A stretch of DNA of 64,000 bases from a virus, in IMG/VR virus record IMGVR_UViG_3300043570_001741, positions 62,001 through 126,000 of that record; one strand, given 5' to 3'. Below are positions 17,272 to 62,852 of this stretch, in pieces. Position 1 is the first letter of the stretch, and every line of letters starts with the position of its first letter. The position numbers and the translations under genes are program-made. A model generated the notes under the pieces. That model was not told the DNA's origin. It searched no databases and worked only from the letters and a program-made list of their open reading frames with translations.

Positions 17272-17299
17272 TTGACAATCCCACTGGTTCTGTTATCCT
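17272..17299 (+). promoter_or_regulatory. Early promoter (no palindrome)
   Basis: TTGACA (17272-17277), 16 bases, TATCCT (17294-17299) with TG extension. From the -35 through the spacer it is identical to the promoter at 16817, so one looks copied from the other, yet the GTTG-N8-CAAC palindrome is missing here. The leader CTATCCATAGATT matches the one at 17500. Confidence 0.7.
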
Positions 17300-17325: not shown

Positions 17326-17475
17326 ATGAAATTCAAGTGCAAAACCTGTGATAAAAAATTCTTCAGCAATGTTGTTTTTGAGCAACACTCCTGTGTGAAA
17401 GCTTATGAGAAAATGACACTTGAGCAATTGTTGCAAGAATACAACAATGCTAAAAATAGTGCTAAAAGCGCTTGA
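17326..17475 (+). CDS. Small C2H-type zinc-finger protein, 49 aa
   Basis: Starts at ATG 17326, after a leader with AAGAAAGCAAG. CKTCDKKFFSNVVFEQHSC resembles a classical zinc finger with Cys-Cys-His-Cys ligands, followed by an amphipathic helix. Its last codons contain the palindrome of the next promoter. Possible DNA-binding regulator. Confidence 0.6.
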   Translation: MKFKCKTCDKKFFSNVVFEQHSCVKAYEKMTLEQLLQEYNNAKNSAKSA

Positions 17476-17499
17476 CATTCTTGCCTGTTCTGTTATACT
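17430..17499 (+). promoter_or_regulatory. Early promoter with palindrome 26 bp upstream
   Basis: GTTG (17430-17433), 8 bases, CAAC (17442-17445), with flanking ATT/AAT extending the symmetry to a 7-bp arm. After 26 bases come TTGACA (17472-17477), 16 bases and TATACT (17494-17499) with TG extension. The palindrome lies inside the end of the upstream coding region. Confidence 0.75.
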
Positions 17500-17532
17500 C
17501 TATCCATAGATTGAAATTTTAAAGGAAACTAA

Positions 17533-17838
17533 ATGACTAAAGTCCTCTCCCCCCTCGCAATTGAATTAGCTTCTGCTCGTCAATCCCTCTCTTTCTTTAA
17601 GAGCGAAGTCCAGTTCTTGGCCGCAAAGGTTAAACTGGAAAGAATTGATGCTAAACTGGCAAAGGCTGATGCCCGCCGTGCTCGCCGTGATGCTGCTATT
17701 GCAAAAGCTCAGGCTAAACTTGACCGCTTAATGGCTCCCGTTGGTTCTAAAGCCACTAAGGCTAACCGCAAACCTTCAAGAGCAAAGACCACTAAATTTG
17801 CTTCCGTTGTAACCGAATTGGATACAGCGACAGCATAA
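17533..17838 (+). CDS. Ala/Lys/Arg-rich coiled-coil protein
   Basis: 101 residues with an AAAGGAAAC ribosome site. A long helix with repeats of ADARRARRDAAIAKAQAKLD type suggests a coiled coil, followed by a basic Ser/Thr/Lys tail resembling histone-like tails. It could coat or bind DNA or RNA. No family is recognised. A structured non-coding stretch follows. Confidence 0.6.
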   Translation: MTKVLSPLAIELASARQSLSFFKSEVQFLAAKVKLERIDAKLAKADARRARRDAAIAKAQAKLDRLMAPVGSKATKANRKPSRAKTTKFASVVTELDTATA

Positions 17839-17839
17839 C

Positions 17840-17953
17840 CACTTTGAGACCGCATGAGGAACTGTGGTATTACAAAGGCCCATGCCAACATGGGCCCTCA
17901 AAGTGTAAAGCAAAGGGATCGCATCCCCGAGGCTCCAGTTGAAAAATTACTGG
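17840..17953 (+). ncRNA. Candidate structured RNA with three-way junction
   Basis: P1 pairs 17840-17848 (CACTTTGAG) with 17897-17905 (CTCAAAGTG). P2 pairs 17850-17854 with 17863-17867. P3 pairs 17877-17884 (GGCCCATG) with 17889-17896 around a CCAA loop and abuts P1. Two smaller hairpins follow (GGGAT/ATCCC at 17915-17927 and CCAGT/ACTGG at 17935-17953). It fills the gap before the gene at 17974 and could be a leader element or free RNA. No known riboswitch is recognised. Confidence 0.5.
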
Positions 17954-17973
17954 GAATTAATTTAGGATAAAGT

Positions 17974-18189
17974 ATGACCAATTTTGCTATGTTCTCCGAT
18001 GCTGGTAACCAGAAGGTTGCCGCCATTGTAGATTTCGCTTCAAAGCACCAACTGGGATGGCAAGAGGTCATGCCGTTGTTGCGTAACCTTGCTAGCTCAG
18101 ACTATGAGCTCTATGGTGAGGCTACCGATACTGCTGTGCGTGAGGCAGTTTATGAAGCCCTCCTTTTAACCACCGATTCTTACGTATGA
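17974..18189 (+). CDS. Hypothetical protein, 71 aa
   Basis: Begins after the structured leader; TTAGGATAAAGT supplies a weak ribosome site. The protein is helical (NQKVAAIVDFASKHQLGWQEVMPLL) with an acidic second half. It overlaps the next start as ATGA. No family is recognised. Confidence 0.6.
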   Translation: MTNFAMFSDAGNQKVAAIVDFASKHQLGWQEVMPLLRNLASSDYELYGEATDTAVREAVYEALLLTTDSYV

Positions 18190-18404
18190 AAATTGAGACA
18201 GCCATTAGTATCCTGAATAAGGAAAGAGAATTTCTAGGCATGACCTTTTTAGGCCTGCTGGTTGATATTCAGAAGGAACAGAGCACCTTCCCAGACATGG
18301 TGTATAGCCAGAAGGTCATACAGGCCTACAATAGGTTCATGGTGGATGGACAGAATTTATTTGCACCCGTTGCAGAAAAACAACAGAGTCCAATTAGTGC
18401 TTGA
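18186..18404 (+). CDS. Small conserved early phage protein
   Basis: 72 residues, ATGA-coupled to the previous gene. The first part, MKIETAISILNKEREFLGM, and a YSQKVIQAYNRFM helix resemble small phage proteins with unknown role. The end of the gene holds the palindrome and -35 box of the next promoter. Confidence 0.6.
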   Translation: MKIETAISILNKEREFLGMTFLGLLVDIQKEQSTFPDMVYSQKVIQAYNRFMVDGQNLFAPVAEKQQSPISA

Positions 18405-18428
18405 CATTACCACCTCCTGTGTTATACT
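18369..18428 (+). promoter_or_regulatory. Early promoter with palindrome 16 bp upstream
   Basis: GTTG (18369-18372), 8 bases, CAAC (18381-18384); 16 bases; TTGACA (18401-18406), 16 bases, TATACT (18423-18428) with TG extension. The leader CCATCCATACATTGAGAAAG is a close copy of those at 17300 and 17500. Confidence 0.75.
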
Positions 18429-18455
18429 CCATCCATACATTGAGAAAGCAAGAAA

Positions 18456-18563
18456 ATGATTGATTTTATTAACGACCACTTTGAGACCACCATCCTTCCC
18501 ATCCTGTTTGCGCTGGGTGTGGCCGTGGTGATCCTTGACCTTTTCTTTTGGAGAGCAGTATGA
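18456..18563 (+). CDS. Small membrane protein, 35 aa
   Basis: Starts at ATG 18456 after an AAGCAAGAAA leader. One hydrophobic helix (ILPILFALGVAVVILDLFFW) fills most of it. It is coupled to the next gene as ATGA. It is short but well placed behind a promoter. Confidence 0.5.
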   Translation: MIDFINDHFETTILPILFALGVAVVILDLFFWRAV

Positions 18564-18799
18564 GCAAGATGAGCAACCTAATGATAGCCATTCAGGAAGA
18601 CCTGAGTGCAGCCCGCCTGTCCTTTGCTGAGATAGCAGCCAAGCATGAGGTACCACTTGATTGGGTGGACTCTGTGGCCAATGAGATGGCCGACCATTAT
18701 GATGAGAGCATGGATGGAGACTTTGATTCAGCCATGGCCAGTGCAGGCTATGGTACGGATGAGGACTATGGTTGCTACGGTGCTGACGACTATTATTGA
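18560..18799 (+). CDS. Small phage protein with HTH-like N-terminus
   Basis: 79 residues from ATG 18560 with a TTGGAGAG ribosome site. The tract LSFAEIAAKHEVPLDWVDSVANEM reads like a helix-turn-helix or its conserved phage relative; the C-terminus is very acidic and Gly/Tyr-rich. It might be a DNA-binding regulator. Confidence 0.6.
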   Translation: MSKMSNLMIAIQEDLSAARLSFAEIAAKHEVPLDWVDSVANEMADHYDESMDGDFDSAMASAGYGTDEDYGCYGADDYY

Positions 18800-18973
18800 G
18801 GTGGTCAAGGAAAGCCTTCCAGACAGTCCACGGGAGTCCTCTACAAGCAGACTACAATTGTCTAAGGTTGTTACCATCGCTCTAACGAAGACTTAACTAT
18901 GGTCAATCCCAGTCCATCCACAGAAATTTTCTAAATTTTTTTTTCGGCCAGGAATTGGCCTCAGGAGTTGGTT

Positions 18974-19426
18974 ATGCCGTTAGAACGGAATGTTGATTTA
19001 TGGGGTGAAGAATCTATCATAGAAACCAATGAGTGTTCTATGTCTGGTTGTACTAATCCTAGAGATAATGCAGGAAATGGAAATTATCATTCATTATGTT
19101 CAACGCACCATAAAGAAAAATATCTAATGAGTGGATGGAATTACAAGCAATATCGCAAAAATTATTGTGAGAATATTGATGGTCGTTTTGGATTTAAATG
19201 TACCACTACGATTATCATGGATGCACAATTGACGGTTGACCATATTGATGGTAATAATAAGAATAATAATCTAAGTAACCTACAGACACTTTGCTTTGAT
19301 TGTCATGTGATAAAGACTAATGTTAATGGTGATAGGCAGAAGGATCATAGGCCTACAGAAGGACAGCGAATATTACGCTGGGAAAAATTTCTAAATTCTA
19401 TGAAAGAAAAGGAAATGTTGATATGA
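18974..19426 (+). CDS. HNH homing-type endonuclease
   Basis: 150 residues from ATG 18974 with CAGGAG ribosome site. An N-terminal Cys set (CSMSGC, CSTHH) is followed by the HNH core LTVDHIDGNNKNNNLSNLQTLC and FDCHVIKT. This is typical of free-standing phage homing nucleases. The 174 bases upstream hold a GGCCA/TGGCC hairpin and a T9 run but no gene I can support. Confidence 0.85.
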   Translation: MPLERNVDLWGEESIIETNECSMSGCTNPRDNAGNGNYHSLCSTHHKEKYLMSGWNYKQYRKNYCENIDGRFGFKCTTTIIMDAQLTVDHIDGNNKNNNLSNLQTLCFDCHVIKTNVNGDRQKDHRPTEGQRILRWEKFLNSMKEKEMLI

Positions 19427-23303: not shown

Positions 23304-23628
23304 TGGTATCTTTTTCACCCCTGCAAATGATTACGATTTAGAGTTATCATTTTTTGATTTGAAAGAAAACCGCGGAACGCCAATTGATGGAAGTAAATAT
23401 GGTGACAAATACCATATTGCTTTCTTTAAAGGATTACCGGATGGTGAAGTGGTATTTGACGAATCATTTGAAGCTATCTTTGCCGACCCTGTGACTTATA
23501 TCAGAGGGCTGGTTGGGTGTGAATTGTTCGGATGCATTCTCAAAAAAACAACAACCTCAACAAAATGGTTCGAAGATTACCTCACAAGAACTAAAGAATC
23601 TGTTAAGCTACTTAATGAAAACTCTTAA
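23293..23628 (+). CDS. Hypothetical protein, 111 aa
   Basis: The likely start is ATG 23293, overlapping the ArfA-like gene; ATG 23260 is possible. It is acidic and beta-rich (FFTPANDYDLELSFFDL, KYHIAFFKGLPDGEVVFDE). No family is recognised. Confidence 0.55.
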   Translation: MEHDGIFFTPANDYDLELSFFDLKENRGTPIDGSKYGDKYHIAFFKGLPDGEVVFDESFEAIFADPVTYIRGLVGCELFGCILKKTTTSTKWFEDYLTRTKESVKLLNENS

Positions 23629-25469: not shown

Positions 25470-25495
25470 GTTCTTTAAAAATTTGTAGAGTTAAT
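25470..25495 (+). repeat. boxA-like tRNA leader repeat (copy 1)
   Basis: GTTCTTTAAAAATTTG resembles the boxA region of bacterial rRNA leaders, followed by TAGAGTTAAT. A near copy precedes the second tRNA block at 25951, and an exact inverted copy of 25477-25495 is at 28100-28118. Host rRNA-type antitermination of the array is a possibility. Confidence 0.5.
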
Positions 25496-25864: not shown

Positions 25865-25882
25865 TTTGAAAACAAAAGTATT

Positions 25883-25942
25883 GTTGTATAAAAACAACGA
25901 TGCTAAAATAGTTGTTGACTAAATGTGTGGTTCATGTATAAT
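25883..25942 (+). promoter_or_regulatory. Internal tRNA-array promoter with palindrome
   Basis: GTTG-N8-CAAC at 25883-25898, 16 bases, TTGACT (25915-25920), 16 bases, TATAAT (25937-25942). It lies between tRNA-Cys and tRNA-Glu and would let the main part of the array escape the attenuator at 25417. Confidence 0.75.
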
Positions 25943-25950
25943 ACACACAT

Positions 25951-25976
25951 GTTATTTAAAAAGTTGTAGAGTTAAT
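25951..25976 (+). repeat. boxA-like tRNA leader repeat (copy 2)
   Basis: GTTATTTAAAAAGTTGTAGAGTTAAT differs from copy 1 at 25470 by few bases and again sits just before a tRNA block, here tRNA-Glu at 25981. This placement argues for a leader role rather than chance. Confidence 0.5.
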
Positions 25977-25980
25977 TTTT

Positions 25981-37533: not shown

Positions 37534-37965
37534 ATGATGAGCTCTGAAAAACTATACTCCGAAATTTTTGAAGATTTCGATAAATGCAAAAACAAAGAAG
37601 AACGTATTGGCGTGTTACGGAAGAATTTTCATCCACGCTTTGCTGAATTCTTGCAAATGGCATTTCACCCAAATATTGAATTTGATGTACCAATCCCGAA
37701 TTACAGACCGGCAACTGAACCTGCTGGTTTGAATTTCTCGTATATTGATACTGAGATTTCTAAGATGTATCGATTCATTAAAGGTCATCCAAAACGACCT
37801 GAAGGATTGACACCACATAAACAAACTAGTATTCTGTTGGTCATTCTAGAATCACTACATAAAGACGAAGCTGAACTGCTTGTTAAATTGTTCAAAAAAG
37901 ATTTAGGTGTAAAATACCTAACATTGAATCTTGTTAAAGAAGCATATCCAACTTTAAACATTTAA
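37534..37965 (+). CDS. DUF6433-type conserved phage protein
   Basis: 143 residues. The pattern SEIFEDFDKCKNKEERIGVLR, FHPNIEFDVP, and KDEAELLVKLFKKDLGVKYLTLNLVKEAYP follows DUF6433, which sits near rnh and gene 59 in many T4-like phages. The role is unknown. A second ATG is one codon in. Confidence 0.75.
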   Translation: MMSSEKLYSEIFEDFDKCKNKEERIGVLRKNFHPRFAEFLQMAFHPNIEFDVPIPNYRPATEPAGLNFSYIDTEISKMYRFIKGHPKRPEGLTPHKQTSILLVILESLHKDEAELLVKLFKKDLGVKYLTLNLVKEAYPTLNI

Positions 37966-61994: not shown

Positions 61995-62852
61995 ATGGCT
62001 TCTTTGTTTTCCCGATTAAATTATAACTACGTAGATACCAATTCAGTTATTAGTGAATTATCTACTGAAGTGAGAACGACACTAGATTCTATGCCGAAGA
62101 TGTTGACTTCTTGGCAAGCTGCTGATTTAGCTAATAATGATACTGGTGGTTACTTTATTAATCCTTGTGCTAATGTGACAAGTAATATTTGGAGTGTATC
62201 TAATAATTTGGTGAATGTTACAAGCTCACTACAAGGCTCAGGTAATTTGACTGGTCTGTGGACTCATATTCGTAGCACTTTTGCTTACATCAGTAATAGC
62301 GCAACCGGTAACACACAAGCTGGTGACTTCCTTGCTCACACGAACAGAATTTCAGGTGTAACTTCTATAACAGTATCATCTGACCAAGGTGTTGCAAATT
62401 TACCACATTATGAGACTGCCGTTCAAACAGGCAAAGCAGTAGTCTCATTAATTTACCAAACAGAAGGTGTATCCAACAATGCACCAATTATGGGCAACTT
62501 TACGAGCTTGTTTGTGGCTAATGATTTGATATCAATCTATAATACTGTGGTCACATATGCAAATACGATTAACAGTAGTATTTCGATTTCAGGTTCTGGT
62601 AGCGAAATGGATCCATTCATTAGAACTTCCAATCTGACATTCAACACAGTAAATGCCATAGCAACCACAGCTAATTCTGCTAACTCCATCTTCTATGACC
62701 GCAGAGTCCATGATGAGCAGTTTTATAAGAATTCGTTAAGTATTCTTACAGACTACAAAAAGGCTCGTGGTGTTGGAAGTACAGGTCAAACAGAAGACTT
62801 TTTAATTAAAAATTATATTGGCTCAAGTAAACTATTATATAGGATAGGTTGA
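61995..62852 (+). CDS. Virion structural protein between gp5 and gp25
   Basis: 285 residues. It is Ser/Thr/Asn-rich with long helical stretches and FYDRRVHDEQFYKNSLSILTDYKKARG near the end, as in proteins conserved between gp5-like and gp25 in T4-like phages. It is probably part of the baseplate. An AAGGAATA site precedes it. Confidence 0.72.
   Translation: MASLFSRLNYNYVDTNSVISELSTEVRTTLDSMPKMLTSWQAADLANNDTGGYFINPCANVTSNIWSVSNNLVNVTSSLQGSGNLTGLWTHIRSTFAYISNSATGNTQAGDFLAHTNRISGVTSITVSSDQGVANLPHYETAVQTGKAVVSLIYQTEGVSNNAPIMGNFTSLFVANDLISIYNTVVTYANTINSSISISGSGSEMDPFIRTSNLTFNTVNAIATTANSANSIFYDRRVHDEQFYKNSLSILTDYKKARGVGSTGQTEDFLIKNYIGSSKLLYRIG

Follow-up and report, generated by a model that had tools for sequence, protein, structure and literature searches.

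Apart from tRNAs, little is known of the noncoding RNAs of phages. T4 makes two small stable RNAs, RNAC of 139 nt and RNAD of 119 nt, which are classed as late RNAs (PMC9697503) and still have no assigned function, their biological roles being unknown (PMC3014915; PMC9697503). The put RNA of phage HK022, about 70 nt long, is made of two stem-loops (PMC9378689). The element described here lies in a stretch of 64,000 nucleotides (positions 62,001 to 126,000 of IMG/VR record IMGVR_UViG_3300043570_001741), called the window throughout. It occupies 17839-17954 on the plus strand and, as judged from sequence comparison, appears to be a member of an undescribed family of noncoding RNAs in uncultured T4-like phages; the family belongs among the small structured phage RNAs of unknown function. 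The phage of the window is T4-like in its NrdA, gp32-type single-strand binding protein, and tail and baseplate PHROGs, and its gp32 is nearest to that of the Kyanoviridae (about 53-59%), of which the relatives tested are without the RNA.

The first-pass annotation had drawn three mutually compatible stems of 9, 5 and 8 bp, meeting in one junction and followed by two more hairpins, across 17839-17973. RNAfold returned exactly this fold, at -46.5 kcal/mol (z = -4.3 for 141 nt), with P1 and P3 of the lengths proposed and P2 of 6 bp rather than 5. The conserved part ends at 17954, as delimited by the fold, by covariation and by the full-length covariance model R2, which matches the window at 17837-17957 with 124 bits; the last 19 bases of the proposed interval, 17955-17973, hold the next gene's spacer and ribosome-binding site and show no conservation in relatives. 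The 116-nt element alone has a z of -5.2 and none of 500 dinucleotide shuffles was as good. Among 2204 segments of this length sampled from both strands of the window, tRNAs included, none is as stable; the most stable of them, a tRNA segment, reaches -46.0. A good fold is also obtained for the minus strand (z -3.2), as expected because the stems are long; in tRNA arrays the element is on the tRNA strand. No second copy was found in the window, and no terminator was found after P5 there. Two weak stand-alone hairpins at 37884-37922 and 23394-23417 have UGNRAAAU-like loops after a UAA and are not significant.

All parts of the element are on the plus strand. The 5' strand of P1, CACUUUGAG (17840-17848), pairs over 9 bp with its 3' strand, CUCAAAGUG (17897-17905), and in the helix table 7 of its 9 positions show double changes. 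P2 is formed by ACCGCA (17849-17854) and UGUGGU (17863-17868), and closes the loop UGAGGAAC (17855-17862), whose GAGGAAC is invariant across all junction-bearing members in alignment A3. A joining strand, AUUACAAA (17869-17876), is of variable length among members (4 nt in L025) and leads to the P3 hairpin GGCCCAUG-CCAA-CAUGGGCC (17877-17896), in which 17877-17884 pair with 17889-17896. These strands of P1, P2 and P3 are drawn from the fold and the helix table, with the alignment added for P3. The linker UAA (17906-17908) stands 5' of P4 (17909-17934; model R1 and pair counts), a hairpin with an outer stem, a purine-rich internal loop and an inner stem GGGAU-CGN-AUCCC. P5, CCAGU-UGAAAAAUU-ACUGG (17935-17953), rests on pair counts and a loop tally.

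The family was found in about 50 IMG/VR contigs. The 71-aa protein encoded at 17974 led to seven IMG/VR loci, five of which have the RNA upstream, two of these being identical to the window, and the family was enlarged with pattern scans for P2, P4 and P4-P5, with R1, a covariance model of the P4-P5 core, and with a scan for a basic protein described below. Each of 26 records searched whole gave one strong R1 match. Two candidates (L010 and L012) were dropped, as the P2 pattern occurs there by chance and the fold is different. A distant blastn search of INPHARED phages and PLSDB plasmids gave chance matches only, with none in cultured phages. The pattern scan of GTDB genomes gave at least 119 matches, and among the matches listed the few that passed a loose filter were unrelated. 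R1 found nothing in 200 genomes from the order to which a Comamonas record belongs, with the best 30 candidates per genome scored, and gave no significant match in five chosen relatives (four cyanophages and Vibrio phage 207E48.1). R2 likewise had no significant match in these five phages or T4, its matches in S-CREM1 and 207E48.1 being weak (E about 0.1). An Rfam scan and an alignment with relatives had been set beforehand as checks. In Rfam 15 no family matches the element at the gathering score, trivial or otherwise; at E<=10 two eukaryotic models match within 17400-19000, both of them outside the element. Searches of the open-licence literature gave no account of a motif of this kind.

In the relatives the pairing is kept, not lost, and covariation supports every stem. 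An RNAalifold alignment of the first 13 members has 33 pairs, 20 of them changed on both sides. Fitted to R2, 26 distinct full-length members are paired in 96.6% of cells, with double changes at 20 of the 33 modelled pairs and in 116 cells (37 in shuffles), figures to be read with the bias of any alignment fitted to a model towards that model's structure; sliding the partner by 1-3 columns lowers pairing to 33-40%, and one of the five covariation measures, the number of further pair types, was not above shuffles. The helix table drawn up by hand points the same way, with as many as four standard pair types at a single P1 position and GC/CG/TA exchanges in P2 and P3. Taken by itself, the P4-P5 core (28 distinct rows) is 98.7% paired, with 49 double changes against 10 in shuffles. 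The element is not coding: each reading frame is interrupted by a stop in 20-23 of 26 members, and the lengths are spread over all three phases. The proposal that the structure is under selection is thus strongly supported, and the notion of a chance structure in a GC-rich intergenic gap, which we give practically no weight, is refuted by the covariation and the significance of the fold.

In its full form of about 115 nt, the junction of P1, P2 and P3 is joined by UAA to the P4-P5 core. The loop of P3 is YCAA, replaced by AGGAA in three members (L021, L025 and L239). The P4 hairpin GAUCGNAUC is conserved, its N taking all four letters, and the 3' strand of its internal loop varies (CGAG, AGAG, GGAG, CGAA, CGAU, CUAG). 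The loop of P5 starts with U-G-N-R-A in all 28 distinct cores, as UGAAA, UGGAA, UGUAA, UGCAA or UGAGA. This invariance of the loops is partly built in, because the patterns that brought in most members already prescribe GATCG.ATC and TG..AAAT; both GATCG.ATC and UGNRA are kept without pattern selection in the three members found by protein (L005-L007), and also in five found by R1 beside the basic gene (L288, L290, L303, L314 and L324). P4-P5 occurs without the junction at L020, L033, L044/L052, L046/L049/L050, L288, L290, L303, L314/L316 and L324, which makes P4-P5 the core and the three-way junction a module that may be absent. The UAA of the element doubles as the upstream gene's stop codon in several of these shorter members.

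The surroundings of the RNA vary widely. In the window, an early promoter TTGACA-N16-TATACT (17472-17499, plus strand), upstream of the basic gene, is the likely source of the transcript. Early promoters there at 17272, 17472 and 18401 have the form TTGACA-N16-TAT(A/C)CT with a common downstream CC-ATCCATA-ATTGA-like block, probably a common early-promoter cassette, and 18800-18967 is a noncoding gap of about 165 nt between two small genes. Elsewhere the RNA is close behind an early promoter (L013, L020, L022, L029, L047, L205, L212), directly on a stop codon (L046, L288, L290, L303, L324) or, in some other members, behind an unrelated gene; a sigma70-like promoter stands just behind it at seven loci (L005, L007, L011, L043, L045, L207, L211). 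The genes downstream differ between phages, and none is conserved.

A recurrent place is the tRNA array, where seven loci (L021, L030, L043, L045, L048, L205, L212) have the RNA between tRNA-Cys(gca) and tRNA-Glu(ttc), on the same strand, and another (L211) has it between tRNA-Arg and tRNA-Glu, no tRNA-Cys being called. The RNAs of the arrays are of four sequence types, all before tRNA-Glu(ttc) and mostly after tRNA-Cys(gca). In the window the element lies about 7.7 kb before the tRNA array, and the Cys-Glu spacer (25865-25980) has a TTGACT/TATAAT promoter without the RNA; its flanks resemble those of L205, which has the RNA there, making it an empty homologous site. The phages that carry the RNA are related, and the shared context may be one of lineage. 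A boxA-like GTTCTTTAAAAA, possibly serving antitermination of a tRNA operon, stands before tRNA genes in the window (about 25472-25486); around 17839-17973, read by eye, there is no boxA, and GTTCTTTAAAAA comes after the RNA, directly behind P5, only in the tRNA-array members L205 and L212.

Outside the tRNA arrays, most members have directly upstream a gene for a basic protein of about 100 aa. In the window this is a gene of 101 aa at 17533-17838 on the plus strand, whose stop codon abuts the element, as seen in alignment A5 and from co-occurrence. The protein is rich in Lys, Ala and Arg, with an Arg-rich stretch DARRARRDAA in the window, and its family has a conserved tail VGxKAxKANKKPS, at least 80 IMG/VR loci (the window gene and L269-L348) and no Pfam match above the cut-off. 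It is encoded in every one of the five largest records that have the RNA. Six records of 162-177 kb have the protein and no detectable RNA, a 125-kb record (G018) has the RNA and no detected protein, the two are far apart in another (G007), and at L274 the gene has no RNA behind it. The basic gene is a frequent neighbour of the RNA, not a proven part or partner, and its role as an obligate partner is weakened by the protein-only genomes. Between basic gene and RNA, three loci (L044, L026, L239) have a terminator-like hairpin CCCCGAGG..CCCCTCGG-TTTTT, so there transcription must read through or restart to reach the RNA. Just after the stop of the basic gene, L279, L284 and L307 have a long inverted repeat ATATTGAAGTACACT...AGTGTACTTCAATAT that encloses a variable insert. 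This is a structured element of another kind, in the place that the RNA takes elsewhere.

The reading we prefer, with a probability of roughly 0.55, is that of a small structured RNA that is released by processing of early or tRNA transcripts and acts in trans, which would be the regulatory RNA that the first-pass annotation had offered as one of its two possibilities. The RNA would be cut out of the longer transcripts of early or tRNA operons, as tRNAs are, which is suggested by its having neither a terminator nor a fixed promoter of its own; it would then act as a stable RNA, a trans action to which only the varied genomic context points. The GAGGAAC of P2, the GAUCGNAUC hairpin of P4 and the UGNRA loop of P5 could dock a protein of host or phage. 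It is conceivable, at somewhat under even chances, that the family is a cassette which relocates between the tRNA array and sites among the early genes, acting in trans on such a protein (in translation, RNA decay or defence, for instance) by way of its P4-P5 core and optional junction module. The main rival, which we think rather unlikely, has the element act in cis, as nascent or mature RNA, on the fate of the transcript that contains it: it could be a put-like antiterminator, could counter pausing, or could stabilise the message between cistrons by blocking decay at a stop codon or 5' end. The members close behind an early promoter or directly on a stop codon would suit such an element, as would the lack of its own terminator and a core of two adjacent hairpins like that of HK022 put RNA (PMC9378689). 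However, there is one strong copy per record despite the many promoters of the early region, the promoter behind the RNA at seven loci makes it promoter-distal there, and the conserved loops have a specificity that a simple stabiliser would not need.

It is improbable that the RNA is a ribonucleoprotein or autoregulatory site bound by the 101-aa basic protein next to the gene that encodes it, much as lambda N binds boxB. The boxB of lambda contains UGAAAAA, as does the P5 loop of the window, and the gene's position upstream of most members outside tRNA arrays and its presence in all five of the largest RNA-bearing records would agree with such a site. The six records with protein and no detectable RNA argue against it, as they make the protein simply common in the clade, and so do the separation in G007 and the RNA in G018; a boxB GNRNA pentaloop closed by U-A fits most members, but the loops UGAAAUAUU (L303) and UGAAAAAAC (L288) break the pattern. 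The first-pass annotation had also suggested a riboswitch-like leader of the gene at 17974, whose start codon is 20 nt downstream of the RNA, and three-way junctions are frequent in aptamers. This has lost nearly all its appeal, given that the downstream genes are not conserved and a promoter often intervenes, that the 71-aa gene is present without the RNA at L003, L004 and L274, that no Rfam riboswitch or aptamer matches, and that no expression platform was seen, the Shine-Dalgarno sequence at 17964-17967 being unpaired, with no terminator and no alternative fold.

With a structure supported by covariation, an optional module, natural presence and absence alleles at one locus and a recurrent place in tRNA arrays, the family makes comparative and genetic work on structured phage RNAs possible, and it is a ready covariance-model seed for Rfam.

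Several likenesses to other RNAs were considered and set aside. The pRNA of phi29, likewise encoded by a phage, is about 120 nt long and has a three-way junction; in the present family the loops of P2 and P3 (AGGAA with YCAA or AGGAA) are not complementary, unlike those of pRNA, and the window's phage is T4-like. An sRNA that sequesters CsrA, such as CsrB or RsmZ, has many GGA-bearing loops, whereas here there is one AGGAA loop, two in L021, L025 and L239, and none in members with P4-P5 only. P2-P3 bears a superficial resemblance to E. coli 5S rRNA, which is lost in divergent members and has no Rfam match. The T-loop consensus is U-G-N-R-A, as found in the tRNA T-arm and several riboswitches, and all 28 distinct P5 loops start with it; the P5 loop is, however, nine nucleotides, longer than usual, and the likeness is one of sequence. 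With the lambda nut site the window shares the UGAAAAA loop and a small basic protein encoded next door, but here the protein is often present without the RNA. In some members, as in HK022 putL and putR, an early phage promoter is closely followed by two adjacent hairpins; put RNA has two copies, each just downstream of an early promoter, whereas the family has one copy per record at varying positions, several of them promoter-distal and often with a promoter after the RNA, and an extra junction, a distinction drawn by description. Nearest in setting, not in sequence, would be RNAC and RNAD, with which the family is comparable as small structured RNAs of a T4-like phage that, in some members, lie in a tRNA gene array. 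Neither covariance model matches T4, R2 finding nothing in its genome or tRNA-array locus (L223), the family has no detectable sequence or structure in common with the two T4 RNAs, and, unlike RNAC and RNAD, the family stands before tRNA-Glu in the arrays of one phage group and among early genes elsewhere.
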